Source: Selenomonadales bacterium (lineage in GTDB: Bacteria > Bacillota > Negativicutes > Sporomusales > UBA7701). Taken from it: DNA of 64,000 bases. Positions 10,138-28,938 of this stretch are shown piece after piece. Where the stretch lies: NCBI GenBank assembly GCA_018434945.1, contig JAHDOI010000047.1, positions 62,001 through 126,000 on the forward strand. Direction: 5' to 3'. The position numbers and the translations under genes are program-made. Below the pieces are notes generated by a model, which saw only the letters and a program-made list of their open reading frames with translations, searched no databases and was not told the DNA's origin. How positions within the stretch are numbered: position 1 is the first letter of the stretch; the number at the start of each line of letters is the position of its first letter.

Positions 10138-10506
10138 AAGCTAGTTTATGCCAGTTTATGTTAGGCGCTTACACGCCCCCTTCTACTCTGGGGCTTCGAA
10201 AGTAGTTGCCGCATCAGCCTCCACCCTACAGTCACCAACCCCTTAATATAATAGTTTTGCTCCTTAGCCGACATACCTAAACCTTCAGGGCATGGTATCC
10301 GGCCGATCGGTATAGCGGGAAACGGCTATGCTTCCCTTGCTTTGGAAAGGAGCAATGTTTCCGGCGGTGCGATTGTTGCGCCTATTTTCGGTTTTCCGGC
10401 CGGATGTATTGCCAAGCCTTTCCGACTTTCGACGGGCTTGGCATATTTTATTTCTCCGGCAGCGAAGCCAGAGTACCAGTGAATATAACCGCAAGGAGGA
10501 ACTGCG
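10138..10506 (+). promoter_or_regulatory. Long untranslated leader with a terminator-like hairpin
   Basis: No gene fits in this stretch. GCCAAGCC (10411-10418) pairs with GGCTTGGC (10435-10442) and is followed by ATATTTTATTT, 55 bp before the next start codon; this is the layout of an attenuator or riboswitch expression platform. Upstream are several short complementary segments, for example around TAGC/GCTA near 10310-10330. I do not recognise a known riboswitch class. Confidence 0.4.
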
Positions 10507-10803
10507 ATGATTTGGCCCGAAAACGAAAGCGCCGATTACCTTCTGAGCAACCGCGAATATATGGAAAAGGCTTTGCGGGAAGCGATCATGGTAACCCGGA
10601 ACGCCATCCGTGAAGCCAGTATGGAAAGAAACGGCTATTTATTCGAAGAATACATCCGTTTTCTCGATTCGCTGACCGGCGATCTGGCAAGGTTGTCCGA
10701 ACTTCTTCTGATTACCGAGGCGGATAAGAAGCTGCCGGCTATTTATCGGCGCCAGTATGACCGACGGCAGACACCTCCGCCACCCGCCTCAATAAAACGC
10801 TGA
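10507..10803 (+). CDS. Small conserved-looking protein of unknown function
   Basis: 98 residues, soluble, largely helical and charged (MIWPENESADYLLSNREY, then SLTGDLARLSELLLITEA), with a proline-rich tail. I do not recognise the family. The start has a strong Shine-Dalgarno sequence (GCAAGGAGGAACTGCG) directly upstream. It lies 35 bp ahead of the DUF2325 gene in the same direction and is preceded by a leader with a terminator-like hairpin, so the two genes are probably co-transcribed and controlled together. The start context and spacing make it a likely real gene; nothing can be said about its function. Confidence 0.7.
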   Translation: MIWPENESADYLLSNREYMEKALREAIMVTRNAIREASMERNGYLFEEYIRFLDSLTGDLARLSELLLITEADKKLPAIYRRQYDRRQTPPPPASIKR

Positions 10804-10838
10804 CCCCAGCAGACCACAACGGAAACGAGGATTACTTC

Positions 10839-12455
10839 ATGAAAATCGCCGATTTCACCGTTAAAATCGGACCGGTCAAGGTGGATGCCATCCCTCCGTT
10901 CGTGCAGCTCGCCGCCGATACCGCCGCCGCTTACAAAGAGATTGATTCCCTCCATGCCAGCCAAAGCGAACGCTGCTTCCTGGCCGCGTCGCGGTCGCCG
11001 TATTATAACCACCCCTCGTTCACGGGCGGCGGTATCGAGCGGGAGATATACGCGCGGAAATATCTCGGCCTGGTGCTCGCCGCCATCGCAGAAGGGCGAG
11101 ACTCGCCCTTCTTTGCGCGAGTCTTCAATATAATGGCCAACCGCTGGACGAGCCTTCACCGCTACATAACAGAAAGCCAGGAAGTGTTTCTTGACGAGGT
11201 TGTCGACCCCCAATACCACTCCCCCGCGGTCAAGAAGGCGGGCGGCAGTCTGCTTTCGGGTGTGGTCGGCCACTATTTCGACAGTTTCGTCAGCGTATAC
11301 CCCGTTCTCGACCTGCCCCGCCAGGCCGCCCTGAAATTCGCTTTGTTCTCATCCTGCGCCCTCGGCCGGAAAGCAAGCGTGAAAAACCCCGAAATATTGG
11401 CCGAAATCGAGGTGATGAGCGGAAAAACCCCGATCACTAAGAACTTCCGGGATATAAACAGGCGGCTTAGCGCCCCGGACTTCAGAAAAGTTACCAGGGA
11501 AATAAAAAATGCGATCTTCCAGCGGGTGAGGCCGGACTTCCGACGGTGGGACAACGACCGGTTTATCGAAGGGTGGGCGCATTGCGGTGCTTATCTTTCT
11601 GCGGAGGAAGGCATCCCGTTACTCGGCCACGAATTTTTGACCGCACCAAAAGACAGGGAGGTCGAACTCCTTTGCCGCCTGTATTTCATCAAAATTACGG
11701 CGGAAATGTTTCGTTACGGACCCGTCGACCAGACAAAAGACGAGGTCGAGCGGGAGTGCGCCGAATTCGTGATGTTCGGCCTTATATGGCTGGGACTTGT
11801 GCGGGAATACAAGAAAGCCCGGAAGTATTACTCGGCCCACGGCGCCGATCATCTTCGCGGCGAGATGAAGGCCATGGAAGAAAAGCTCGCGGACGGCGAA
11901 GAACAGCTTCGCAAGGCTAAAGATGCGCTGGCCGCCAAAGACCGCATGCTTTGCATGAAAGACCAGCAGGCCAGCGAACAAGCCCGCCGGCACAAGTTGG
12001 AGCTCGACGCCTTAAACGAGGAAATCGCGCGTCTGAAAAGCGAGGCGTCCCGCGACGCCCAGCCCGCAGCAGAGGATACAGCCGGCGGGATAGCGGCCGC
12101 GCCGGGCATAATGCCGGAATCGCCGCCCTTACCGGGTTCGGATGTCGCCCACGATCTCATGAAACTGCGGGGAATAAGGGCGGTGGTAATCGGCGGCACC
12201 GAAAAATGGCAGGCGAAACTCAGCAGCCGGTTGCCCCATTTCGTTTATCTGTACGGCGACGCCGCGGGCTTTGACGAGTCGCTGGTCATCAACGCCGACA
12301 TCGTGTTCGCCGATACACGTTACAAATTCAACCATGGCTGCTTTTACAGGCTGGCGAACATCGTCCGTCGCCACAACAAAAAACTCGTCTTCCTTTCCAG
12401 GACCAACACCGCCCTCGCCGTCCGCCAGATGGCTTTGGCTGTGGAGTGTCACTGA
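10839..12455 (+). CDS. DUF2325-domain protein with a coiled coil
   Basis: 538 residues, no signal peptide or membrane segment. Residues 1-330 form a mostly helical domain I do not recognise. Residues about 345-405 are a coiled coil (heptad-like, rich in E, K, A and L). A linker rich in P and A leads to a C-terminal DUF2325 domain (about 440-538), recognisable from AVVIGGTEKWQAKL, NADIVFADTRYKFNH and KLVFLSRTN. DUF2325 proteins are widespread in Firmicutes without a settled function; the fold looks like a small nucleotide- or ligand-binding alpha/beta domain. It follows the 98-residue gene by 35 bp and ends before a strong bidirectional terminator at 12557-12593. The domain assignment is reasonably sure, the role open. 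Confidence 0.75.
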   Translation: MKIADFTVKIGPVKVDAIPPFVQLAADTAAAYKEIDSLHASQSERCFLAASRSPYYNHPSFTGGGIEREIYARKYLGLVLAAIAEGRDSPFFARVFNIMANRWTSLHRYITESQEVFLDEVVDPQYHSPAVKKAGGSLLSGVVGHYFDSFVSVYPVLDLPRQAALKFALFSSCALGRKASVKNPEILAEIEVMSGKTPITKNFRDINRRLSAPDFRKVTREIKNAIFQRVRPDFRRWDNDRFIEGWAHCGAYLSAEEGIPLLGHEFLTAPKDREVELLCRLYFIKITAEMFRYGPVDQTKDEVERECAEFVMFGLIWLGLVREYKKARKYYSAHGADHLRGEMKAMEEKLADGEEQLRKAKDALAAKDRMLCMKDQQASEQARRHKLELDALNEEIARLKSEASRDAQPAAEDTAGGIAAAPGIMPESPPLPGSDVAHDLMKLRGIRAVVIGGTEKWQAKLSSRLPHFVYLYGDAAGFDESLVINADIVFADTRYKFNHGCFYRLANIVRRHNKKLVFLSRTNTALAVRQMALAVECH

Positions 12456-12608: not shown

Positions 12609-12812
12609 TTACTTCATTACCATCATCTCGGTGGATTTTACCAGGGCCGTGACTTTGTCGCCCGCCTTGAGCCCCAGGTCGTCCACCGAATCGACCGTGA
12701 TCGCCGCGACCAGCTCGGTGCCCTTGAAGTCCATGACAACTTTCGCCATAACGCCGCCTTTGACAACTTCCTTAACAGTGGCTTCCAACTTGTTGCGTCC
12801 GCTGATCTTCAT
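12609..12812 (-). CDS. mop: Molbindin (Mop/TOBE-domain molybdate-binding protein)
   Basis: 67-residue single TOBE domain: MKISGRNKLEATVKEV, GGVMAKVVMDFKG, then LVAAITVDSVDDLGLKAGDKVTALVKSTEMMVMK. Free-standing Mop proteins of about 68-70 residues assemble into hexamers that bind molybdate or tungstate in the cytoplasm. They are thought to store the oxyanion or buffer it for cofactor synthesis. The size, the S-R-N motif and the G-L-K-x-G-D-K-V turn fit well. It has an AAGGAGG site just upstream, its own AT-rich promoter with a palindrome (12848-12876), and a shared terminator downstream, so it is monocistronic. Its presence suggests molybdenum or tungsten enzymes in this organism. Confidence 0.9.
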   Translation of the reverse strand: MKISGRNKLEATVKEVVKGGVMAKVVMDFKGTELVAAITVDSVDDLGLKAGDKVTALVKSTEMMVMK

Positions 12813-14964: not shown

Positions 14965-17016
14965 ATGTTTTTCAAGGCAATCATCCGTTTAATGGTCATT
15001 CTCGGTTTAGTTTCCCTTTTGGTTCCGGTACCCGGCCCGGCGGTAGCTCGGGCAGCCGAACCGGCCGCCACTACATTGGATGAAGTGGTCGTCACGGCTG
15101 TACCGCTGGAAAAATATCTGGTCACCACCAGCGTAATCACCGCCAAAGAAATCGCCGCCAAAGGAGCCCGTACCCTGGCGGACGCGATCGAAGACGTTCC
15201 CGGCCTGAACTTTTATCAGCACAAGAAGAATGCGCTGCAGGTCGATATTCGCGGCAGCAGCCTGTCCTACACCAAAATTTATATCGACGGGTTGCTGGTC
15301 AACCCGCTGTCTAAGGTCGGCGGCTCCGGCTCGGTAGACCTGAACATGTTCCCGGTCGATAATATCGCCAAGATCGAGATTATCAAGGGGCCGGCGCCGG
15401 TCATTTACGGCACCGACGCCATCGGCGGCATAATTCTTATTACAACGAAAAGCGGCAAAGACAAGCCCGGTGGCAGCATTTCGCTTGTCGGCGGCTCTTT
15501 CAAAACCTTCAACGGCTCGCTGGGTTACGGCGGCGGCGACGCCAAGTTCAACTACTACTTCAACGCCGGCTCGACCCATACCGACGGCTACCGGGACAGC
15601 GGCGCGCGGAGCAAATACATAAACGCGAAACTGAACTGGAAATTGCCGGACGGAGCCGCGCTCTCCTTCATGGGCAGCTATTCGCTCACCGACAAGGACT
15701 GTCTGAACGCCATCGACCCGGTCGACGGCCATATCATTTCTTCGAAAAGCGGTTTTTGGGCCGGGCTCAACAACTGGGAGTTCCGCAACTGGGAACGGAC
15801 CAGCCTGGCGCTCGACTACGGCAAGAAACTCAACGACAAGCTCGATGTCGACGTAAAAGCGTACCGCTTCACCGAAAGCCAGGAGCTGTGGGCGGACGGC
15901 AGGCGCTATGACCCGGCAGCGGCGACGCCGAACGGCAGCGGCATCGTGAACGGCAACACTAAGGACGTCGGCTACAGCACCCTTCGGTGGAATAAGAGCC
16001 CCTGGGAAAGCACCATGAACGGCATGGAACTGCAGAGCAACTGGAAGCTGGACGGCAAACATACGCTGACCTTCGGCGCGCTTTACAACGACCTCGACTG
16101 GAAGAACTCGGCGTCTGTCGATCCCGTCAACGACCCTTATAACCCCGACAACCTCAAGTGGAAACTGCTCAACAACAAGCGCTACGGCTACTATATTCAG
16201 GACAACTTCTCACTCAGTGCCAAGACGATGCTCACCGTCGGTGTCAGGTACGACGTAAATGAAGTGAAGAGCCAGGACAGCGGCGCGAAGAAAGGGTCGG
16301 CGTACAGCCCGGTTGTCAATGTGGTGCACCAGTTAGACAGCCGCGACACGATCCGCGCCTCCTACGGGAGGACGCTCAGCTTTCCCACCGCAACCCAGCT
16401 TTACGGCACCTATGGCTCGGCCGACCTGAAGCCGGAAAGGTCCACCAACTACGAGCTCGGCTTCAAACGGGTTTTCGACAAAAAAACAACGGGCGATATC
16501 GCTTTTTTCCAAAACGACATCACCGACCGCATCGATACCGACGCGAACAGAAATTATTACAACGCCACCTGGGCCAAAGTCAAGGGCATCGAGCTGGAAG
16601 TCACGAAAAAGCACACCGACCGGTGGAGCAGTTTCGTCAATTACACCTATCTGGACACCGCGTCACAAAAAACCAACGGTTCGGTCACGGAACTGACCTA
16701 CGCGCCGCGGCACCACATTAACTACGGCCTGAGCTACAAAGCCGACAAGGGCTACACCTTCAGCCTGACCGGCCACTGGGTAGACAGGCGCTATACCGGC
16801 GACGACGGCTCCGCAAAAGACACCCGCACCGGGTCGTACATCTACGGCTATCTGCCTGCCTACAACACGGTGGATCTGAAAGTCAGCCGCCAGGTGAACG
16901 CCAATCTGGACTGGTACGTCAAAGTCTACAACCTTTTCGACCGCGACTATGCCAACGCTCTGTTCTATCCTGCCTCCAGCCGCACCTTCATCACCGGCGT
17001 AAATTACAAATTGTAA
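14965..17016 (+). CDS. TonB-dependent outer-membrane receptor
   Basis: Gated outer-membrane receptor for a large or scarce nutrient, most likely a metal chelate; 683 residues. I use the ATG at 14965 because GAAGGGGGAAAAGC precedes it. A signal peptide (MFFKAIIRLMVILGLVSLL, cut near AVARA) is followed by a TonB box (LDEVVVTA) and a plug domain (about 40-150: GARTLADAIEDVPGLNF, ISIIKGPAPVIYG-like EIIKGPAPVIYGTDAIGG). A 22-strand barrel ends in RTFITGVNYKL. The layout resembles colicin I/FepA/BtuB-type receptors. It is the first gene of a twelve-gene operon that also codes for its own TonB, ExbB and ExbD, a binding protein and an ABC transporter. No cobalamin riboswitch precedes it, so vitamin B12 is not the obvious substrate. 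Confidence 0.93.
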   Translation: MFFKAIIRLMVILGLVSLLVPVPGPAVARAAEPAATTLDEVVVTAVPLEKYLVTTSVITAKEIAAKGARTLADAIEDVPGLNFYQHKKNALQVDIRGSSLSYTKIYIDGLLVNPLSKVGGSGSVDLNMFPVDNIAKIEIIKGPAPVIYGTDAIGGIILITTKSGKDKPGGSISLVGGSFKTFNGSLGYGGGDAKFNYYFNAGSTHTDGYRDSGARSKYINAKLNWKLPDGAALSFMGSYSLTDKDCLNAIDPVDGHIISSKSGFWAGLNNWEFRNWERTSLALDYGKKLNDKLDVDVKAYRFTESQELWADGRRYDPAAATPNGSGIVNGNTKDVGYSTLRWNKSPWESTMNGMELQSNWKLDGKHTLTFGALYNDLDWKNSASVDPVNDPYNPDNLKWKLLNNKRYGYYIQDNFSLSAKTMLTVGVRYDVNEVKSQDSGAKKGSAYSPVVNVVHQLDSRDTIRASYGRTLSFPTATQLYGTYGSADLKPERSTNYELGFKRVFDKKTTGDIAFFQNDITDRIDTDANRNYYNATWAKVKGIELEVTKKHTDRWSSFVNYTYLDTASQKTNGSVTELTYAPRHHINYGLSYKADKGYTFSLTGHWVDRRYTGDDGSAKDTRTGSYIYGYLPAYNTVDLKVSRQVNANLDWYVKVYNLFDRDYANALFYPASSRTFITGVNYKL

Positions 17017-17040
17017 TGATTTAAATCGAAGGAAAAAGCG

Positions 17041-18144
17041 ATGAAAACACCACGCCTCTTCTGGCTTCTCCTGCTCGTTGCCCTGTCGCTGACCCTCCCC
17101 GGCTGCGGCAGCGAGCAGGCCAAGCCCCCTTTGGCGCCGACCAACCCGGGCGACCGGATCGTTGCTGACATGGCTGGCCGCAATGTTGTTCTGCCGGCCA
17201 CGATCAAAAAAGTATACGCCGTATCGCCGGTGGAAACGGTGCTGCTTTATACCCTGGCCCCCGACCTCCAGGCCGGCTGGAGCTATCACATGGCCGGCAA
17301 GGAGAATCTCTTCATCCTGCCGGAGTACCGGAACCTGCCCGTCCTGGGAGCCTGGACATCCTTCAGCGGCACCGCCAGCGTCGAGGAAATCCTCAAGATC
17401 AGGCCAGACCTCATCCTGATGGCCAAAGCGATCGGCCCGGCGGCACATACTCTTGCCGATGAAATCCAGCAGCTTACCAAGATACCGGTCTTCATCGTCG
17501 ACGGCACGTTAACCGGCATGGAACAAGCTTACCTTTATGCAGGCCGGGCGCTGGGCCGCGAGGAGCGCGCCGCCCGCTTGTCCGCCTACTGTCGCGAGAC
17601 GATCGCTATGATCGGGGACAAAAAACCGCTGCTGACCAGCCGCAAACCGGTGACCGTCTACTACGCCGAAGGGGCGAAGGGGCTGGAAACCGAGCCGAGC
17701 GGCTCCTGGCACGCCGAAATCATTGAATTTGTCGGTGGCGTCAACGTGGCCGGCGTCAACCTCCCCAAGGGCGGCACCCTGGGCCGCAGCCCCGTGTCGC
17801 TTGAACAGGTCCTGCTATGGAACCCCGAGGTCATCCTGATCTCCTACTTCCACGACAGCGAAAAAAGTAGCTTCGCGCAGATCATGGGCGCCGCCGACTG
17901 GCGCGATATCCGCGCCGTGCAGGACCGGCGGGTCTACGAGATTCCCCACTACCCGTTCAACTGGTTCGACCGCCCGCCCTCGGTAAACCGCCTCATCGGC
18001 ATCAGATGGCTCGCCAACCTCCTCTATCCGGACGTATACCCACTTGATCTGCGGGCCGAAGTCAAAAAGTTTTATGCGCTCTTCTACCACTATCAGCTTA
18101 CCGAGGAGGAAACGGACCAGCTGCTGCGCCGCTCGCAGCGCTAG
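17041..18144 (+). CDS. ABC-transporter substrate-binding lipoprotein (BtuF/FepB-type)
   Basis: Periplasmic binding protein for a metal chelate, 367 residues, anchored as a lipoprotein: the signal peptide ends in LTLPGC, with Cys near residue 22 as lipidation site. The PF01497-type fold is shown by the opening strand DRIVADMAGRNVVLPATIKKVYAV, the middle helix and loop VEEILKIRPDLILMAKA, and the late motif LEQVLLWNPEVILISYF. It follows the receptor by 24 bp. The permease and ATPase that complete the importer lie 4-8 kb downstream in the same operon. Siderophore, cobalamin, haem and molybdate-type ligands are all handled by this family, so the ligand cannot be told from sequence alone. Confidence 0.9.
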   Translation: MKTPRLFWLLLLVALSLTLPGCGSEQAKPPLAPTNPGDRIVADMAGRNVVLPATIKKVYAVSPVETVLLYTLAPDLQAGWSYHMAGKENLFILPEYRNLPVLGAWTSFSGTASVEEILKIRPDLILMAKAIGPAAHTLADEIQQLTKIPVFIVDGTLTGMEQAYLYAGRALGREERAARLSAYCRETIAMIGDKKPLLTSRKPVTVYYAEGAKGLETEPSGSWHAEIIEFVGGVNVAGVNLPKGGTLGRSPVSLEQVLLWNPEVILISYFHDSEKSSFAQIMGAADWRDIRAVQDRRVYEIPHYPFNWFDRPPSVNRLIGIRWLANLLYPDVYPLDLRAEVKKFYALFYHYQLTEEETDQLLRRSQR

Positions 18145-18179
18145 GCCGAATGCTCTCCAAGGCCACAAGGGGTGAGAAT

Positions 18180-19187
18180 TTGAACTGCAATTTCTGTGAA
18201 CGACGCTGCGACCTCAGCGACGGCAAGCTCGGCGTCTGCCGCATGTACCGTCAGGAAAACGGCGCCATCCGCGAACGCTTTCCCCATCGCTGGAGCACCT
18301 ACATGTTGTCGCGGATCGAGTCCCTGCCGTTCTACCACGCCTATCCGGGCAGCCGCAGCATGACCATCGGCACCCTGGGCTGCAACTTCGACTGCCGGTA
18401 CTGCGCCAACGGCTTTATCGCCAAAGCGGAGCCGGAAACCCGGCTCGACACCCTGTACGAATTCACCTCCCGCGAACTGGTGGCGCTGGCCACCAAACGG
18501 GGCTGCCATAATATCGTTTTCAACGTTAACGAGCCGACCGTCTCGCTGCCCTCCCTGCAGGAGCTTGCCGGCGCTGCTGCGGCCGCGGGCGTGCCGATGG
18601 GCTGCCTCACAAACGCCTACATGACCGAAGAGAGTACCGAGCTTATGGCGGGAATCTTTTCCTTCATGAACATCAGCCTCAAGGGCCTGTCAGCCGACTT
18701 CTGCCGGCAGTACCTCGGCATCGCCGATGCCTCGCCGGTACTGCGCAACATTCGCCAACTGGCGGCAACCACCCACCTTGAGATCACCACACCGATCATC
18801 CAGTCGGTAAACGACGGCGATATCGACCAAATAGCCGAATTTATCGCCAGCGTCGATCCGCAAATCCCCTGGCACGTGTTCCGCCTGCTGCCGGAGCACA
18901 AGATGAAAGAAGCCGACTATCCGAACGTGGCGGTAATCGACAAGGCTTTGGCGAAAAGCCGCAAACTGCTGCCATACGTCTATTTCCACAACTTCGTCGG
19001 CTCCGATTGGGTCAACACCAATTGCCCGAGCTGCAAAACACCGGTAATCGAGCGTTTCAGCCTGGGCTGCGGCGGCGACCGGCTTAGCCGCTATCACTGC
19101 CTTGATAACAAATGTCCGGCTTGCGGCCGCGCCATCAACATCCACGGCCGGCTGACCGGCTGGAACTCCGGGGAGGGAACGGTATGA
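18180..19187 (+). CDS. Radical SAM protein, AmrS/PflA-like, with zinc-ribbon-like ends
   Basis: S-adenosylmethionine radical enzyme of 335 residues. An N-terminal cysteine group (CNFCERRC, later GVC) comes before the iron-sulfur motif CNFDCRYC (CxxxCxxC). Later segments NVNEPTVSLPSL and TNAYMTEESTELM fit a PFL-activase-type barrel. The C-terminal cysteines (VNTNCPSC, then VIERF, then CPACGRAI) match in layout those of the AmrS protein at 44303-45292, so the two look like paralogues. I prefer the TTG at 18180 because AAGGGGTGAG lies 5-6 bp upstream; an ATG at 18150 would add 10 residues but has no such site. The gene overlaps the next one (ATGA). The substrate is unknown; the operon suggests modification of a metal ligand or of a partner protein. 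Confidence 0.85.
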   Translation: MNCNFCERRCDLSDGKLGVCRMYRQENGAIRERFPHRWSTYMLSRIESLPFYHAYPGSRSMTIGTLGCNFDCRYCANGFIAKAEPETRLDTLYEFTSRELVALATKRGCHNIVFNVNEPTVSLPSLQELAGAAAAAGVPMGCLTNAYMTEESTELMAGIFSFMNISLKGLSADFCRQYLGIADASPVLRNIRQLAATTHLEITTPIIQSVNDGDIDQIAEFIASVDPQIPWHVFRLLPEHKMKEADYPNVAVIDKALAKSRKLLPYVYFHNFVGSDWVNTNCPSCKTPVIERFSLGCGGDRLSRYHCLDNKCPACGRAINIHGRLTGWNSGEGTV

Positions 19188-20311
19188 GCCTGGCAATCAT
19201 CGACGGCCGCGAATGGCAAAGCATCCGCGATCTCAGGACAGGCGAAAAAGCAGCCGGAACCGGCCCCTGCGCCCGCATGGTCGGCAGCGTCCTCCGCAGC
19301 CATCCCTTCCCCGGCGACATCGACGCCCAGGGCAACAAGTGGGTGACCGACACCGCCCTGGATCTGGCCGGGCGCTACGACCCGCAGTTGGCCTTTCTCA
19401 TCTACTCCCAGCAGTACTACGCCTTCCGCTTCGACGCGCCGTCCCCGGAAGAACGGGCCAGACTGATCGCCGCCGCTTTTGAGGAAGCGCACCGCTTCGC
19501 AACCGAAGGCGGCTTCTTCCCGGTGATCGTCGGCACCGGGGACATGATCCCGGCTTCCGCCTACATCGACCTCAGCCGCCTCGACGGTCTGGCGTCCGTC
19601 AGCCACTGGCTGACCCGCTATGCCGGCCTGTACCGTCCCAGTGACGCCGATATGGCCTATCTCGGCGGCCTGGCGGGGATAGAGCGGATAATCGACCGGC
19701 AGGAATATCTGGCCCTGTTCGGCGGCGCGCCTGCCGAGGGCGACCGCCTGCCAGACCATCTCGCGGTGGCCAAGGAGGGCCACTGCTTCCGATCAACGCT
19801 ACTGCGGCAGGCGCGGATGGTCCCCGCCCGCAACGAATTCGTCCCGGTCGCCAACCTGGAGACAGCCGACTCGCTCACCGACATCAGCGCCGGTGTACTG
19901 GAACTGCTGAAAACCAGCAAAGTGGCCCTCATCCTTATGGAAGGGGTCGGCCTGCGGGACTTCCCTCTTCCGGCCAGACGCTGCCGCAACGGCACAGGCT
20001 GGTTCAGCTACGAACCGTGCGAATGCCAGTACCTGACCATCAGCACCGGCCGGCACCAGGCCCTCGCCTACCCCGCCGGCTACCGGTCCTACCTTGAGGA
20101 TGACGAAGCTAAAGAATACCCCTTCTCCGGCTACTTCACCTCCATTCCCGCCGGCACGGTCGGCACCCTCGCCGCCGCCCGCAGCATCGCCGTCGGCAAC
20201 CGGAGCATGTTCATGCACACCGTGACCGGAGCCGATATCACCATCGAATGCTTCGCCCGCAACCTGTCCAACCAGGGCTGCATGGCGGTAATACACCGTC
20301 AGGACAAGTAA
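19184..20311 (+). CDS. Unknown cytoplasmic protein in the metal-uptake operon
   Basis: 375 residues, no signal peptide, no membrane segment; I do not recognise the family. Notable segments are GDIDAQGNKWVTDTALDLAG, YDPQLAFLIYSQQYYAFRF, FPVIVGTGDMIPASAYIDL, KVALILMEGVGLRDFPLPAR and a cysteine pair in YEPCECQYL. The pattern of a strand after DPQLAFL followed by an acidic loop vaguely recalls the alkaline-phosphatase/phosphodiesterase fold, but I would not rely on that. The ATG overlaps the stop of the radical SAM gene by four bases and has GGGGAGGG upstream, so the two are translationally coupled and probably act together. The FmdE gene follows after 39 bp. Confidence 0.7.
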   Translation: MSLAIIDGREWQSIRDLRTGEKAAGTGPCARMVGSVLRSHPFPGDIDAQGNKWVTDTALDLAGRYDPQLAFLIYSQQYYAFRFDAPSPEERARLIAAAFEEAHRFATEGGFFPVIVGTGDMIPASAYIDLSRLDGLASVSHWLTRYAGLYRPSDADMAYLGGLAGIERIIDRQEYLALFGGAPAEGDRLPDHLAVAKEGHCFRSTLLRQARMVPARNEFVPVANLETADSLTDISAGVLELLKTSKVALILMEGVGLRDFPLPARRCRNGTGWFSYEPCECQYLTISTGRHQALAYPAGYRSYLEDDEAKEYPFSGYFTSIPAGTVGTLAAARSIAVGNRSMFMHTVTGADITIECFARNLSNQGCMAVIHRQDK

Positions 20312-20350
20312 AAAAATTTGCTGCTGAATTTTATTAAGATACGGAGGGTT

Positions 20351-20956
20351 ATGGAAATGGAATCAGCTTATCCGGCCGATCTCAAAAAGGTGCTGGAATT
20401 TCACGGCCATATGTGCCCCGGCGTAGCCATCGGCTACCGCCTGGCGAAAGCGGCGCTGGCGGCGCTGGGCTACAGCCATCCCGACGAAGGCGACCTTGTT
20501 ACAATCGCCGAAAGCGACCGCTGCACCGTCGACCCTTTCCAGATCATCCTCGGCTGCACGCTCGGCAAAGGCAAACTGTACATAAACAGCACCGGCAAGC
20601 AAGCCTTCAGCGTCGGCTGCCGCACAAGCGGTAAAGCCGTGCGGGTCATCCAGCTGCCCTACAACTATTCGGCGGAAAGCGACGACCTGACCCGCCGGGT
20701 GATGGCCGGCCGCGTCACCGACGAGGAATACCGGCAGTATAAGACCGCCCGCGAAAGCCGGATACAGGAAATACTCACGATGCCGGCGGCGGAACTGCTC
20801 AAAGTGGAATCGGTGAGTCTCAGCCTGCCGGAAAAAGAAACCATCCACAATTCCCCCTGCTGCGCCTTCTGCGGCGAGCAGGTCATGGAACCCTGGACCC
20901 GCCTGCGCGCGGGAAAAATCGCCTGCATCCGCTGCGCCACCCCTGTGGTACGGTAG
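20351..20956 (+). CDS. FmdE-family protein with C-terminal zinc ribbon
   Basis: 201 residues. The FmdE domain (about residues 10-115) has its two cysteine motifs, FHGHMCPGVAIGYR and ESDRCTVDPFQIILGCTLGKG. A helical linker leads to a C-terminal zinc ribbon (CCAFCGE and CIRC). FmdE was named from genes beside molybdenum formylmethanofuran dehydrogenase, and its true role is unsettled; stand-alone copies are common next to metal transport genes. The start is the ATG at 20351 behind ACGGAGGGTT; an upstream in-frame start at 20318 has no ribosome-binding site. It lies 39 bp after the unknown gene and 7 bp before the methyltransferase. A metal- or ligand-binding role in handling the imported compound is an inference from context. 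Confidence 0.88.
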   Translation: MEMESAYPADLKKVLEFHGHMCPGVAIGYRLAKAALAALGYSHPDEGDLVTIAESDRCTVDPFQIILGCTLGKGKLYINSTGKQAFSVGCRTSGKAVRVIQLPYNYSAESDDLTRRVMAGRVTDEEYRQYKTARESRIQEILTMPAAELLKVESVSLSLPEKETIHNSPCCAFCGEQVMEPWTRLRAGKIACIRCATPVVR

Positions 20957-20963
20957 CCCGCCC

Positions 20964-21953
20964 ATGGAAAAGATCGGCCAAACCCTGTACCAACCCCTGG
21001 AAATAGACCCGACGCCGCTGACCGCCCTGTCGCAAAACAGGCAGATCTACGAAGCGGTGAGCGTCGCCGTCAGCCTGGGCGTATTCAAACATCTGCGGAC
21101 TCCCGGTACGCCCGGCGAGCTGGCCGGCAAGCTGGCCATCGACGGGGACGTCGCCTATTATCTGCTGAAGCTGCTGGCACACGCCGGTTGCCTGACGGAA
21201 GACCGCGGCAAATTCAGCGCCACTCCGCTTGCCGACGCCTACCTGCATGAAGACAGCCCCTTCTATCTGGGACACGAATTCACCCTGACCTGCGAGTATG
21301 GCCGCCAACTGCTGGCCGCTTTGTCGCCGCAGACGCCAAGAAACACGCCCGAACCGGAATGGACCAGGGAGCGCCTGAGGCAAATCGGCGTTTTCGGCAT
21401 GATGGGCTCGATCCAGAGCACGGTGGAGGCCGCGGAGCTGAGCGCCGCCCGCCGTCTGCTCGACCTGGGCGGCGGCCACGGTTTCTATAGCATCGCTTTC
21501 GCCCAGAAATATCCCCAGCTTGAAGTAACCCTCTTCGATCTGCCGCATGTCGCCTCTTACGCCGATAATTTCGTCCGCGAGTTTTCGTTGCAGCAGCGAG
21601 TTCATACCCGCGGCGGCGACTTTTTGGCCGACGACATCGGCCACGGCTTCGACGCCGTCCTGTGCGCCAACGTGCTGCACAGCAACAAGCGCGACGTATT
21701 GCTGGTGAAAATCCGCCAGGCCATAAACCCCGGCGGGCAGCTCATCATCAAAACCCGCATCGGCGACGTCGCCGACAACCTCGAAAACGCCGCCACCAAA
21801 CTGCTGTGGCAGGCCAAGGGCGGCCGAGAGCTGTTCAGCTTCGCCGAATGGCAGGGCTTCCTGGCATCCCACGGCTTCCGCAATGCGGAGCTGGCTGGCA
21901 TATCAGGCATTTACGCCACCATTATTGCGCAGGCAGGAGGCAACGATGGCTGA
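20964..21953 (+). CDS. O-methyltransferase-like protein (acetylserotonin/hydroxyneurosporene type)
   Basis: SAM-dependent methyltransferase, 329 residues. An N-terminal winged-helix dimerisation domain (about 20-100: IYEAVSVAVSLGVFKHLR, then LAGKLAIDGDVAYYLLKLLAHAGCL) precedes a Rossmann-type catalytic domain with the SAM-binding motif LLDLGGGHGFYS (about 162-173), an acidic end of strand 2 (LFDLPHVAS) and FDAVLCANVLHSN. Plant-type small-molecule O-methyltransferases share this plan, so a small organic compound, not RNA, is the likely substrate. It begins 7 bp after fmdE and overlaps the permease gene by 8 bp. In a metal-uptake operon it could methylate a chelator or act during breakdown of the imported complex; neither is shown by the sequence. 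Confidence 0.85.
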   Translation: MEKIGQTLYQPLEIDPTPLTALSQNRQIYEAVSVAVSLGVFKHLRTPGTPGELAGKLAIDGDVAYYLLKLLAHAGCLTEDRGKFSATPLADAYLHEDSPFYLGHEFTLTCEYGRQLLAALSPQTPRNTPEPEWTRERLRQIGVFGMMGSIQSTVEAAELSAARRLLDLGGGHGFYSIAFAQKYPQLEVTLFDLPHVASYADNFVREFSLQQRVHTRGGDFLADDIGHGFDAVLCANVLHSNKRDVLLVKIRQAINPGGQLIIKTRIGDVADNLENAATKLLWQAKGGRELFSFAEWQGFLASHGFRNAELAGISGIYATIIAQAGGNDG

Positions 21954-23007
21954 CGAAAATAACCCGGCAGTCCTGCAAAAAACGCCGCTATGTCTGCGCT
22001 GGCGTACCGGCGACCTGGTGCTGCCGGCGATGGCCGTCATCCTGTTGGCCGTCTTCGCAGGCTCCTTTCTCGTCGGCCGCTTTCCCGTGTCTCCGGAAAC
22101 GGTGCTGATGATGCTGACGGCCAAAGTTGCCGGCCTGCCGCAAACCTGGCCGAACAGCCTGGAAACCGTCGTATTCAAGGTGCGGCTGCCGCGGATACTG
22201 GCGGCCATCCTCGTTGGGGCGGCGCTGTCGGCCGCGGGGGCGGCCTATCAGAACCTGTTCCGCAACCCCCTGATGGCTCCGGAGATGCTGGGCGCAACCT
22301 GGGGCGCGGCTTTCGGCGCCGTTCTCGGCATGGTATTTCGCCTGCCCTGGCTGGCGATGGAACTCACAGCCTTCGTTTTTGGCCTGCTGGCGGTGGTATG
22401 CACCGTCGGCATCAATCTGCGGTTCGGCAGCAGGCACGCCATCACCCTCGTGCTGGCCGGCATCGTTGTCTCGGCCTTCTTCCAGTCGGCCACCTCGGCC
22501 CTGAAATATCTGGCCGACCCTATGGATACGCTGCCGGCCCTTACCTTCTGGCTCATGGGCGGCTTATCGAAGGTCAGCCTCCAGGACGTCGCCTGGACGG
22601 TGCTGCCGGTTGTCGTCCCGGCCGCCATTCTCTACCGGGTGCGCTGGCGGATCAACGTTCTCAGCGTCGGCGAGGAGGAAGCGCAAACCCTGGGCGTCGA
22701 CGTACGGCGCACCCGGATCCTTGTGCTGATCTGCGCCACCCTCATGACGGCGGCGGTCGTCAGCATCAGCGGCATCATCCATTGGGTCGGGCTGCTCATC
22801 CCCCACCTGGCCCGCATGCTGGTCGGGGCCGATTTCTCGCGGGTGCTGCCCGCCTCCATGCTGCTCGGCGGCACCTACATGCTGGTCATGGATAACCTCA
22901 GCAGAAGCATCGCCTCGATCGAGATCCAGGTAGGAATACTCACGGCTCTGATCGGCGCCCCCTTCTTCGTCTTCCTGCTGGCCAAGGCCAAAAAAGGCTG
23001 GGCCTGA
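21946..23007 (+). CDS. FecCD-family ABC transporter permease
   Basis: Inner-membrane permease for iron-siderophore/cobalamin-type chelates, 353 residues, about ten membrane helices. Family segments are PRILAAILVGAALSAAGAAY, QNLFRNPLMAPEMLGATWGA, TFWLMGGLSKVS and, near the end, HWVGLLIPHLARMLVG, which includes the loop that contacts the ATPase. The start at 21946 has CAGGAGGCAACG ahead and overlaps the methyltransferase stop by 8 bp, so they are coupled. A single permease gene means a homodimeric channel, as in BtuC. Partners are the lipoprotein at 17041 and the ATPase at 25549. Confidence 0.93.
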   Translation: MADENNPAVLQKTPLCLRWRTGDLVLPAMAVILLAVFAGSFLVGRFPVSPETVLMMLTAKVAGLPQTWPNSLETVVFKVRLPRILAAILVGAALSAAGAAYQNLFRNPLMAPEMLGATWGAAFGAVLGMVFRLPWLAMELTAFVFGLLAVVCTVGINLRFGSRHAITLVLAGIVVSAFFQSATSALKYLADPMDTLPALTFWLMGGLSKVSLQDVAWTVLPVVVPAAILYRVRWRINVLSVGEEEAQTLGVDVRRTRILVLICATLMTAAVVSISGIIHWVGLLIPHLARMLVGADFSRVLPASMLLGGTYMLVMDNLSRSIASIEIQVGILTALIGAPFFVFLLAKAKKGWA

Positions 23008-23052
23008 CGATATCCCGGCGACATACATACACAATCACGGGGAGTTGATGCT

Positions 23053-23883
23053 GTGAACGACGTTTTTAACGAAACCATTGATATCAGGCCGGTAGGCCAT
23101 GTGGAAAGCCATTGCGGCAATCCCGAAGCCATGCCGCTGGGCGGCCGGCAGGCCGTCATCCGCCTAAGGCCGGACTATGAGCCGGCGCTGCTGCGCATCC
23201 GCGAGCACAGCCACTTATGGATCCTCACCTGGTTTCACCAGACCAAGCGCTCGATACTTAGGGTGCGGCCGTCCAAAGTCAACCCCGATATGCCCGAATA
23301 CGGAGTTTTTTCCCTTCGCAGCGCCGCCCGCCCCAATCCCATCGCCCTGACGCTCGTGACGCTCTACAAAGTCGACGGCTGCGACCTCTACGTCTCCGGG
23401 CTGGATGCGGTCGACGGCACCCCGGTACTGGATATCAAGCCGTATTTTGAAGAAGATATCGTCTTTTCGCCGCTCACCCCCTATATCCCGCCGAGCGACC
23501 GCGATACGCAGGCCCGGCTTCTTCGCGGCCAGGCGCTGACCCATCACGGCGAGGCGTGCCTCGGCCTGGAGCTTGGCGTCCGAATGGCCTTGCTGGCTGA
23601 AGAGCGTTTCGGCCAGCTCCAGTCCCCCGCGCTCGCCATATCGGTCGCCGGCGACCCATGCCTGGCCGATGTCCTCCAGGGACTGACGCGGGCCCGGCTG
23701 GCCAACCCGCCCCGCTTCAGCTTTACCGCGTCAGAGGGCGCAAACGTCGTTACGTGGTCGAAAAACGGCCGGACTTTGCGACTCAGCGTCCGGCCGGGCG
23801 TAGATCTGGCCCAGGCGCAGTCGGCGTCGCCGGCCGAGATTTTCCTGCTGGATGAAAACATCACACCTGGCAGCGGGAGGTGA
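23053..23883 (+). CDS. Fusion of a TsaA/TrmO-type domain to an FmdE-like domain
   Basis: 276 residues from GTG at 23053 (GGGGAG upstream). Residues about 8-150 are a TsaA (YaeB/TrmO) domain: IRPVGHVESHCGNPEAMPLG, LWILTWFHQTKRSILRVRP, GVFSLRSAARPNPIALT, DGTPVLDIKPYFEED. TrmO uses SAM to methylate t6A37 of tRNA; many TsaA proteins have no assigned role. Residues about 155-265 look like a second FmdE domain. THHGEACLGLELGVRMA aligns with FHGHMCPGVAIGYRLA of the fmdE gene 2 kb upstream, and AGDPCLADVLQGLTRARL aligns with ESDRCTVDPFQIILGCTL, both with their cysteines kept. The alignment is by eye. Placed between permease and exbB, it more likely acts on the imported compound than on tRNA, but that is inference. 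Confidence 0.8.
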   Translation: MNDVFNETIDIRPVGHVESHCGNPEAMPLGGRQAVIRLRPDYEPALLRIREHSHLWILTWFHQTKRSILRVRPSKVNPDMPEYGVFSLRSAARPNPIALTLVTLYKVDGCDLYVSGLDAVDGTPVLDIKPYFEEDIVFSPLTPYIPPSDRDTQARLLRGQALTHHGEACLGLELGVRMALLAEERFGQLQSPALAISVAGDPCLADVLQGLTRARLANPPRFSFTASEGANVVTWSKNGRTLRLSVRPGVDLAQAQSASPAEIFLLDENITPGSGR

Positions 23884-23887
23884 CGGC

Positions 23888-24469
23888 ATGCACGATATAT
23901 TAGCAAAAGGCGGCATCGTATTATTATTGATCATCGCCTGCTCGTTCATCGCCGTGACGGTGGCCGTCCATCGCTGGTGGTTCCTGCGCTGGGCGGAAAA
24001 AGAGGACTCGGCTTTTGCGGCCGAGATGAAACAGATCACCGGCGGGACAGTGCCGGCCGGCGGCGACAGCCCGCTGGCCCGGTTATGGGCCGGCCTGCGT
24101 GACGGCAATACCAGGGCGGCGGCCGAGAGTGCCCTGCTGGACGAAAGCCTCCGCCTGGAAAGGTACCTGTACGTATTGGCGACCATCGCCACCATCTCGC
24201 CGTTGCTGGGGCTGTTGGGGACGGTTTTCGGCATGATCAAAACTTTTCAGGCTGCGGCCCTCAGTGGCGTCGGCAACCCGCAGCTGCTGGCCGAAGGCAT
24301 CGCCGAGGCGCTGTACAACACCGCAGCCGGGCTGACCGTGACCGTCTTCTGCATCGTCAGCCACAACTTCCTGCGCAACTGGGCCGACCGGCTGACACAG
24401 TCGCTGGAAGCGCGCCTGGGCGAAATGCAGGCGCTGCTGGCCGCCAGAGGTGATACCGGTGCCAAGTAA
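23888..24469 (+). CDS. exbB: ExbB (MotA/TolQ/ExbB proton channel)
   Basis: Inner-membrane subunit of the TonB energising complex, 193 residues. It has a first membrane helix near the N-terminus (GGIVLLLIIACSFIAVTVAV), a cytoplasmic middle part, and two further helices with the family segments ISPLLGLLGTVFGMIKTFQA and GIAEALYNTAAGLTVTVFCI. With ExbD it uses the proton gradient to drive TonB. The ATG at 23888 sits behind GGGAGGTGACGGC, 4 bp after the TsaA-FmdE gene. The motor is dedicated to this operon, as it is encoded with its own receptor. Confidence 0.93.
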   Translation: MHDILAKGGIVLLLIIACSFIAVTVAVHRWWFLRWAEKEDSAFAAEMKQITGGTVPAGGDSPLARLWAGLRDGNTRAAAESALLDESLRLERYLYVLATIATISPLLGLLGTVFGMIKTFQAAALSGVGNPQLLAEGIAEALYNTAAGLTVTVFCIVSHNFLRNWADRLTQSLEARLGEMQALLAARGDTGAK

Positions 24470-24857
24470 AGGGCGGCGGAAAATCGGCGTCCACATCGAC
24501 ATGACGCCAATGGTCGACGTAATGATGCTGCTGGTTATCTTCTTCATGATGTCCACGGCGTTTGTGGCCGTTTATCCCGGCTTCTCGGTCAGCCTGCCCC
24601 AGGCCGACGCCGCCAAGCAGCCGGCCGAACATGTCGCCGTCCTGGTCGCCAAAGACGGCCGGATCGCCGTGGACGGGCGCCCGGTAAGCAGAACCGAACT
24701 GGCGCCGGTTTTGAAAAGTCTCAACGGCGCCAAGACGATCGTTTCCATTCAGGCCGACAAGGAAGCAAGCCACGGGCGGGTGGTCGAAGTTATGGACGAA
24801 ATCCGCCGGGCGGGCGTAACCAGAATATCCATCGCCACCGAAGCGAAGGAGCCGTGA
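24459..24857 (+). CDS. exbD: ExbD (biopolymer transport protein)
   Basis: Partner of ExbB, 132 residues from the GTG at 24459 (AGAGGTGAT upstream); a GTG at 24450 is possible. A short basic cytoplasmic tail leads into one membrane helix, HIDMTPMVDVMMLLVIFFMM, whose Asp in VDVMM is the essential proton-binding residue of the family. The rest is the periplasmic domain, ending TRISIATEAKEP. It overlaps exbB by 11 bp, and its stop overlaps the tonB start. Confidence 0.93.
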   Translation: MPSKGRRKIGVHIDMTPMVDVMMLLVIFFMMSTAFVAVYPGFSVSLPQADAAKQPAEHVAVLVAKDGRIAVDGRPVSRTELAPVLKSLNGAKTIVSIQADKEASHGRVVEVMDEIRRAGVTRISIATEAKEP

Positions 24858-25510
24858 TGAAAGTGATCCCCAGAACATGGCTGCCGGCGGCGCTGATTTC
24901 CGCCGTAGTTCACTCCCTGCTCATCGTGGCCGTAGCTCAGGGCTTCGGCCACCAGCCGCCGCCGGAAAAAGAAAAACCGCCTATCGAAGTCGAACTAACT
25001 AGAACATTGCCGCCCCAGGCCATAATCGAAAAAAAACCGGCGTCCCCGGAGACGCGCAAGACCGACGACCGTGTCACCCCGGCCGAACGCACTCCCGCCG
25101 TAACCGCCGTTCCCGAACAGCCGGTCAAGTTTACGCCCGGGCCGCCGGTTACCGCCGGCCTGGTCGGTAACGAGGCCGTGGCCGCACCGAGCGGCGGCAC
25201 CAGCCCTAAAGGCATCACCGGCGTCGCCCCGGCCATACCCGCCCAACGGCTGGCCGTCGTGTACGCGCCGGCCCCAGAATATCCGGCCGACGCCCGCTCC
25301 CAACGCTGGGAGGGCACGGTGCGAATAAGCGTACTGGTCGACGAAAACGGCCGGGTTCAGGACGCGCGGGTGGCCGTCAGCTCCGGCAGCAGTTCGCTCG
25401 ACCAGGCCGCGCTCGACTGCCTTCGCACCTGGCGCTTCCGGCCCTATCATCAGGACGGGCGGACAATCGCTGCGCGGGCAACCGTCCCGGTGGTTTTCAG
25501 GCTGGATTAA
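24857..25510 (+). CDS. tonB: TonB
   Basis: Energy-transducing link between the inner-membrane motor and the receptor, 217 residues. It has an N-terminal membrane anchor (WLPAALISAVVHSLLIVAVA) with the conserved His, and a Pro/Glu/Lys-rich spacer through about residue 125. The C-terminal TonB domain (about 135-217) shows YPADARSQRWEGTVRISVLV, the motif SSGSSSLDQAALDCLRTWRF and a final PVVFRLD strand. The ATG at 24857 shares one base with the exbD stop (TGATG); a GTG one codon earlier is possible. It is short compared with E. coli TonB (239). Confidence 0.93.
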   Translation: MKVIPRTWLPAALISAVVHSLLIVAVAQGFGHQPPPEKEKPPIEVELTRTLPPQAIIEKKPASPETRKTDDRVTPAERTPAVTAVPEQPVKFTPGPPVTAGLVGNEAVAAPSGGTSPKGITGVAPAIPAQRLAVVYAPAPEYPADARSQRWEGTVRISVLVDENGRVQDARVAVSSGSSSLDQAALDCLRTWRFRPYHQDGRTIAARATVPVVFRLD

Positions 25511-25548
25511 ACCTGTGGCAAGCCTGCCACAAATAGCGGGGGAATGAT

Positions 25549-26331
25549 ATGCTGCAAGTAAATAGCATAAGTTTCGGGTATTCAGCTTCATGCGACCTGT
25601 TGGCCGACCTGTCGTTCACCGTCAATGACGGCGACATCGTCTGCCTCCTCGGGCCGAACGGCGCCGGCAAAACAACGCTGCTTCGCTGCCTGCTGGGGAT
25701 ATCCAAGGTACACGCCGGCAGCATCCGAATGAAGGGACGCGAAATCGCCGCGGTGTCTGCGGCCGAGCTGTCGCGCTGGATAGCCTATGTGCCGCAGGCG
25801 ACCGATATCGTGTTTCCCTACCGGGTATTGGACATGGTGGTCATGGGCCGCACCCCCCACCTGGGGTTTACCGCCGTTCCCGCCAAGGCCGATATGGCTA
25901 TCGCCCGGGAAGCTTTGCGCGAACTGGGTATCGCCCACCTGGCGGATTGCCTGTTCAGCGAAATCAGCGGCGGCGAGCGCCAGCTGACCCTCATCGCCCG
26001 GGCCATAACCCAGCAGGCCGGCATGCTAATCATGGACGAGCCGACCTCAAGCCTCGACTACGGCAACCAGGTACGCATCCTCAAAGTCATCAGCCACCTG
26101 GCCAGGCAGGGCTACTCCATCCTCATGACCTCCCACTTTCCCAGTCACGCCTTCATGCTGTGCAACAAGGTTCTGGTCATGAAGCGCGGCCGGATAATCG
26201 CCGCCGGCAGTCCGGAGGAAATCATGACCGAAGAAGGTCTCAGCGACTTATACGGCGCCAAAGTCAAGATCGTCGAAATCGCCGATGGCGCCGCTGAACC
26301 GGTAAAAGTATGCATCCCCCTGCTGGCCTAA
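25549..26331 (+). CDS. FecE/BtuD-type ABC transporter ATPase
   Basis: Nucleotide-binding subunit of the chelate importer, 260 residues. Walker A GPNGAGKTT (about 36-44), the Q-loop in YVPQATDIVFPY, signature SGGERQ, Walker B MLIMDEPTSSLD and the H-loop in MTSHFP are all present, so it should be active. It is the last gene of the operon, 38 bp after tonB, and serves the permease at 21946. A rho-independent terminator follows 20 bp after its stop. Confidence 0.93.
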   Translation: MLQVNSISFGYSASCDLLADLSFTVNDGDIVCLLGPNGAGKTTLLRCLLGISKVHAGSIRMKGREIAAVSAAELSRWIAYVPQATDIVFPYRVLDMVVMGRTPHLGFTAVPAKADMAIAREALRELGIAHLADCLFSEISGGERQLTLIARAITQQAGMLIMDEPTSSLDYGNQVRILKVISHLARQGYSILMTSHFPSHAFMLCNKVLVMKRGRIIAAGSPEEIMTEEGLSDLYGAKVKIVEIADGAAEPVKVCIPLLA

Positions 26332-28655: not shown

Positions 28656-28690
28656 AAGGTATATTCCTCCCGAAAATAACTGTATTTAAT

Positions 28691-28835
28691 CTGCCGCAGT
28701 GCGTTTTGTCCCGCCGGTCGCCCGGCGGTTTTGTCGACTGCTCACGACCGCAGTTGGCCGAGAGGCATCCGCTGACCGTCTCGATAAACCTCTCCCTCGT
28801 CTGCTTGCCGGCAAGCGGCAAGCACCAGCGCTAAC
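28691..28835 (-). ncRNA. glmS ribozyme (glucosamine-6-phosphate riboswitch)
   Basis: Self-cleaving element in the glmS leader. On the minus strand it begins with AGCGC, where cleavage is expected between 28832 and 28831 (A then GCGC). It continues through CTTGCCGGCAAGC and has the highly conserved core GAGGTTTATCGAGACGG followed by GCGGATGCCTCTCGG. It ends with helices CCGCCGG/CCGGCGG and CTGCGGCAG. The order matches the known class from memory. About 35 nt and an AGGAGG-type site (GGGAGGAATATACCTT) separate it from the glmS start. Confidence 0.9.
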
Positions 28836-28938
28836 TGTTATTAATGTGCTGCAAAAGCAGCCGCCGTATCCTCACCTCCCTATTTCTTGATCCGCGCCCG
28901 CCGTTCGCCTCCTTCCCGCGCCCCGGATACATACATAT

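Follow-up and report, generated by a model that had tools for sequence, protein, structure and literature searches.

Does the gene at 23053-23883 (plus strand) of the 64,000 bp stretch of Selenomonadales bacterium DNA analyzed here (the window) encode a tRNA methyltransferase, or a protein that handles a metal complex? The reading frame is intact, starts with GTG and encodes 276 aa. Its product exceeds the cut-off of TIGR00104, the NCBIfam equivalog model for TrmO (101.5 bits versus 93.25), so annotation as a tRNA methyltransferase is to be expected. Pfam analysis identified two domains and only these: TrmO_N (residues 32-133, E-value: 1e-28) and FmdE (PF02663; residues 165-247, 30.1 bits against a cut-off of 22.9, E-value: 5.5e-7). 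Based on Pfam, profile-profile comparison and a fold search, the protein is a TrmO/TsaA SAM-binding barrel (approximately residues 9-145) fused to a diverged FmdE core domain (approximately residues 152-271).

A sequence-only reading had recognized the C-terminal domain by eye from two motifs shared with the neighboring FmdE protein (HGEACLG against HGHMCPG and DPCLAD against DRCTVD). Both motifs were quoted correctly, and profile searches and structure modeling alike bear out the assignment, although the fusion has Glu for the second His and lacks the C-terminal zinc finger that only some FmdE members carry. The isolated domain matches FmdE in Pfam with an E-value of 9.1e-8, and 13 of 14 C-terminal domains of family members match FmdE as well. 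Pairwise BLAST against the neighboring FmdE protein is weak (23% identity, E-value: 0.009), while profile-profile comparison gives a probability of 96% (E-value: 4e-9), and one fused relative directly matches the solved FmdE protein 2glz (E-value: 8.9e-6). In a fold search with an AlphaFold model, residues 152-271 resemble 2glz (Z 12.0, 2.7 Å, 111 residues) and residues 9-145 resemble the archaeal TrmO-family protein AF0241 (2nv4; Z 13.5), AlphaFold on six sequences being confident in the C-terminal domain and patchier in the barrel (residues 62-95 under 50). The 2glz match, the profile-profile result, the agreement among family members and the fold rule out chance similarity to FmdE.

The same reading held a TrmO protein with such a domain to be unheard of. 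This was mistaken: PMC2954224 (2010) already lists FmdE fused to UPF0066 (PF02663 with PF01980) among its architectures, and PMC11237513 (2024) describes a fusion of FmdE and a tRNA-methyltransferase domain in four Methanosarcinales and three Archaeoglobales. These proteins, from methanogenic and sulfate-reducing archaea in the second case, have the same two domains in one chain and no known function, and the accessible parts of the two reports give no link to a riboswitch or TonB-dependent uptake, unlike what is observed for the bacterial fusions. None of the papers found in our literature search assigns a function to the TrmO_N-FmdE pairing. As far as the literature was searched, the domain pairing is known, and the new part is its setting, a TonB/FecBCD-type uptake operon with a link to molybdenum or tungsten (Mo/W).

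A search for the domain pair in other genomes, as the earlier reading had suggested, returned 26 homologous full or partial copies that keep both domains. In a tree of bacterial sequences the fusion barrels all fall into one clade (support 96/93), within which the sole non-fusion row (L037) is a contig-end fragment; the 26 copies and this single clade rule out an artefact of one genome. Bacterial fusions are scattered over the Negativicutes and Clostridia. Of 150 Negativicutes genomes, about a dozen encode one, as do 11 of 299 genomes of the Desulfosporosinus phylum and, patchily, 8 of the 28 genomes of the window's order.

The equivalog score would agree with the fusion being TrmO, the tRNA m6t6A37 methyltransferase, and just happening to be encoded in a metal-uptake operon; the FmdE-like domain would then be an accessory part for tRNA binding or regulation. 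A regulatory role is suggested for the archaeal fusions in PMC11237513. The SAM site bears on this reading in both directions. SAM is contacted by Q25, R92, D125 and K136 in E. coli TrmO (YaeB) and by R82, D111 and K122 in AF0241 (PMC4132733). In an alignment of the 26 fusions (full or partial copies), R89, D118 and K129, which correspond to the three AF0241 residues, are invariant, but the glutamine of the PxQ motif, which contacts the SAM amino group and which most stand-alone TrmO proteins retain, is replaced by Gly or missing in all 26, leaving the fusion with three of the four contacts of TrmO. Mutation of this residue (Q25A) cripples the E. coli enzyme (PMC4132733). Similarly, the DPRxxY C-terminal domain, which is needed in E. 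coli TrmO and is lacking from archaeal homologues (PMC4132733), was not found in the fusion by Pfam, its C-terminus folding as FmdE instead. The fusion is the only TrmO_N protein of this genome, which would suit a tRNA enzyme, but Desulfosporosinus and Desulfocucumis encode separate TrmO proteins besides the fusion, and fusions occur patchily and in association with uptake operons. Taken together, we consider it unlikely that the fusion is TrmO.

The metal site of the FmdE-like domain is altered as well. The FHGHxC residues of 2glz (B8FYU2_DESHY) are metal ligands (PMC2954224); in nearly all fusions the motif reads HHxExC, such that the equivalents of H15 and C19 are kept and H17 is replaced by Glu. 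The D58/Q61 pair of the second FmdE motif is kept as D206 and Q209, invariant in the 26 sequences, while T67 is replaced by Arg; the fusion further differs from 2glz in its attached SAM barrel. As three SAM contacts and the Asp/Gln pair are kept, an altered SAM site and a changed but conserved metal site have both been retained. The lost contact and the His-to-Glu change might instead mark a non-catalytic regulator or chaperone, with the FmdE-like domain sensing Mo/W or its cofactor and the barrel sensing SAM, and a chaperone or regulatory function has been proposed for FmdE (PMC2954224, PMC11237513). However, invariant SAM-carboxylate contacts and an invariant Asp/Gln pair are as for a working site, and no DNA-binding domain was found in the fusion by Pfam, making such a sensor very improbable.

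The fusion gene belongs to a set of twelve genes that follow each other closely on the plus strand (14965-26331). This set begins with a TonB-dependent outer-membrane receptor (14965-17016; Pfam Plug and barrel, with orthologues in the operons of relatives) and a FecB/BtuF-like periplasmic binding protein (17041-18144; Pfam Peripla_BP_2), followed by a radical SAM enzyme (18150-19187; Pfam and NCBIfam), an orphan 375-aa protein of no known family (U375, 19184-20311), the neighboring FmdE protein (20351-20956), a Methyltransf_2-type O-methyltransferase (20964-21953; Pfam) and a FecCD-type permease (21946-23007; an ORF with BLAST orthologues in the same cluster as the fusion in 14 fusion loci). 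The FmdE protein consists of a core domain (Pfam FmdE E-value: 1.1e-36; PDB 2glz E-value: 1.7e-10) and a likely zinc-finger tail recognized by its C-x2-C pairs. Downstream of the fusion are ExbB (23888-24469), ExbD (24450-24857) and TonB (24854-25510), named from sequence and placed by position and orthologues, and a FecE-type ABC ATPase (25549-26331), also named from sequence and having orthologues.

The radical SAM enzyme is nearest to the AmmeMemoRadiSam type but does not reach the TIGR04337 cut-off (151.6 bits versus 220). U375 has no match in Pfam, NCBIfam or PDB, and its single-sequence model is unusable (pLDDT 37). It shows no similarity to a Memo-AMMECR1 protein and was rejected as one; on this basis and that of the radical SAM score, the window set was not assigned to AmmeMemoRadiSam. 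In two other loci, a complete AmmeMemoRadiSam set is found close to the fusion gene (L066:2485-5168 and L068:11216-13800), which suggests a link between that system and the fusion.

An operon of this build could import an iron siderophore, heme or a corrinoid, any molybdenum link being incidental. The receptor scores best against the NCBIfam siderophore, hemin and B12 receptor models, but in every case below the cut-off, and the best-scoring models for the binding protein are ferrichrome and BtuF ones. L008 has two cobalamin riboswitches near its fusion locus, whereas the window operon yielded no RNA element specific for iron or B12. Homologous operons point elsewhere. In two Clostridia (L084 and L085), a FecE-SBP-FecCD-radical-SAM-U375 operon lies directly behind a Mo/W-cofactor (Moco) riboswitch, and a variant of it in a third (L086) is also led by one; in L090, from the same order as the window, U375 is the last gene of a ModD-ModA-ModA-ModB-ModC operon. 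The U375 relatives are located at L084:7363-8613, L085:7067-8203 and L090:8793-9938. Curated cut-offs are passed by the ModA relatives and two ModD relatives and failed by the ModD-like proteins of L051 and L090. Given these operons, an iron, heme or corrinoid cargo seems doubtful.

A link to Mo/W is also found in the window's own genome. No riboswitch was recognized directly before the window operon. The single Moco riboswitch of the genome (10248-10368, plus strand; RF01055, 51.6 bits) lies 4.6 kb upstream, where it leads two other unknown genes, and a 67-aa Mop/molbindin-like TOBE protein is encoded at 12609-12812 (minus strand; Pfam TOBE E-value: 1.1e-17). Further upstream on this contig, 17-18 kb from the operon, are the two ModA genes of the genome, accompanied by genes for ModD, a ModE-like regulator and a ModC-type ATPase. 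The two genes behind the riboswitch (10248-12455 with the riboswitch) encode proteins of 98 and 538 aa, homologues of which (70% and 83%) are found behind another Moco riboswitch at L088:16400-18611. Beside the mod operon upstream of the window (L093, G000:C44), a FecE fragment 94% identical to the window FecE and a fragment of the 538-aa protein (L093:5850-6353 and L093:11407-11685) are traces of duplication between the mod cluster and the window cluster. A third FmdE protein of the genome (L053:11519-12136, G000:C66) adjoins an oligopeptide-type ABC transporter and nif-like genes (NifE/N-like, NifB-like and homocitrate-synthase-like). A glmS ribozyme (28686-28843, minus strand) upstream of the glmS gene is ordinary.

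Among relatives, Moco riboswitches directly precede the fusion or its operon partners, or these lie beside ModABC, ModD and ModE-like genes. In Desulfosporosinus L006, a Moco riboswitch (86.9 bits) directly precedes a methyltransferase-FmdE-DUF364-fusion operon; in L007-L009, one precedes runs containing mod, ModD, FmdE, DUF364 and fusion genes, and in L067, one precedes an NMT1/SsuABC-type importer and the fusion. In each of these five loci the riboswitch heads the fusion operon and is co-directional with it. Of 21 fusion loci, 10 have a Moco riboswitch no more than 15 kb away, where 1.4 would be expected (P = 5e-8); if Desulfosporosinus is counted once, 7 of 18 do (P = 7e-5). None of eight stand-alone TrmO loci has one. 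These statistics are based on rounded genome sizes, uniform placement and controls from partly different genomes. Within the window's genus, Moco riboswitches flank the operon of L088 on both sides and the riboswitch of G083 is far from the operon. L087 and L088, of that genus, have otherwise similar operons that lack the fusion, which is therefore not indispensable. No metal genes were seen near the Clostridia fusion loci L070, L071 and L074.

Other importers also accompany the fusion: a TonB receptor with an SbmA-like ABC transporter and ModD in L052, and an ECF importer in L069 and L075. Oxidored_molyb-like domains are encoded near the fusion at L075:6358-7539, L069:2312-4608 and L072:978-2609, one joined to an ECF transporter membrane component and the others on surface-type proteins. 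With these domains, which resemble the Moco-binding domain of sulfite-oxidase type, present in L072 and near the two ECF versions, the ligand could conceivably be of pterin type. Two further observations concern L006, where a Moco riboswitch is followed by FecCD, FecE and a pair of nitrogenase-component-1-like proteins (PF00148; L006:12266-16897), and where an SBP_bac_6 binding-protein domain fused to DUF1858 has its own Moco riboswitch and no obvious signal peptide (L006:10692-11912), perhaps being a cytoplasmic ligand-binding protein. Stand-alone TrmO genes of Negativicutes (L077, L078, L079, L080 and L082) lie near nitrogenase-like gene pairs, several beside NifX-like proteins; with such neighbors, these may not encode tRNA enzymes either.

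Bare molybdate and tungstate are carried by ModABC and TupABC, whereas the combination of TonB receptor and FecBCD importer serves for bulky organic complexes, and the cargo of ECF, NMT1/SsuABC and SbmA-like importers is usually organic too. Because importers of these types lie beside the fusion, we propose that Mo/W enters the cell in an organic complex, and we favor, at somewhat better than even odds, the fusion being a cytoplasmic part of the uptake machinery for such a complex (metallophore or pterin-type). The tRNA methyltransferase label is probably wrong, given the second, metal-protein-like domain and a cluster whose relatives point to import of Mo/W complexes. In the proposed pathway, the TonB-dependent receptor and FecBCD-type importer would bring in the complex, and the radical SAM enzyme, U375, FmdE, the O-methyltransferase and the fusion would make, open or modify the ligand. 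The TrmO-type barrel would bind SAM and probably methylate the ligand, while the complex of metal and ligand would be held by the His-Glu-Cys site of the FmdE-like domain, adjoining the barrel, the methylation serving either metal release or chelator synthesis. This context lends good support to the earlier suggestion of a common ligand or metal complex for FmdE and TsaA and sharpens it to Mo/W; that both domains act on one molecule we infer, as we do the organic nature of the ligand, the use of SAM and a reaction in either direction.

The proposed system shares its regulation and neighborhood, in relatives, with the ModABC/TupABC importers that have Moco riboswitches (PMC2408646), and differs in that the window importer is of the type for organic complexes rather than bare oxyanions. 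It also resembles the heavy-metal chelation operons of DUF364, for which a pterin- or siderophore-like chelator is the predicted target (PMC2954201) and which adjoins the fusion in six loci (L005, L006, L009, L049, L050 and L075). The window operon, in contrast, yielded no DUF364 gene and contains the radical SAM enzyme, U375 and the O-methyltransferase. Our literature search found no matching molybdophore uptake system of the TonB/FecBCD and fusion kind.

We tentatively suggest, at somewhat less than even odds, that anaerobic bacteria possess a TonB/ABC-driven route for organically bound Mo/W (possibly a metallopterin), in which the fusion of TrmO barrel and FmdE domain is a small-molecule methyltransferase or de-chelatase. 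FmdE proteins, whose structures have been solved since 2006, have to our knowledge no known function, and the riboswitch-anchored link of FmdE, TrmO-FmdE, DUF364, a radical SAM enzyme and an orphan protein to Mo/W uptake offers a testable pathway. If the proposal is true, TonB/FecBCD-type uptake of Mo/W complexes would join the known ModABC, TupABC and WtpABC routes, proteins called TrmO by the equivalog model would need re-annotation, and a class now named tRNA methyltransferase would consist of cofactor-handling enzymes.
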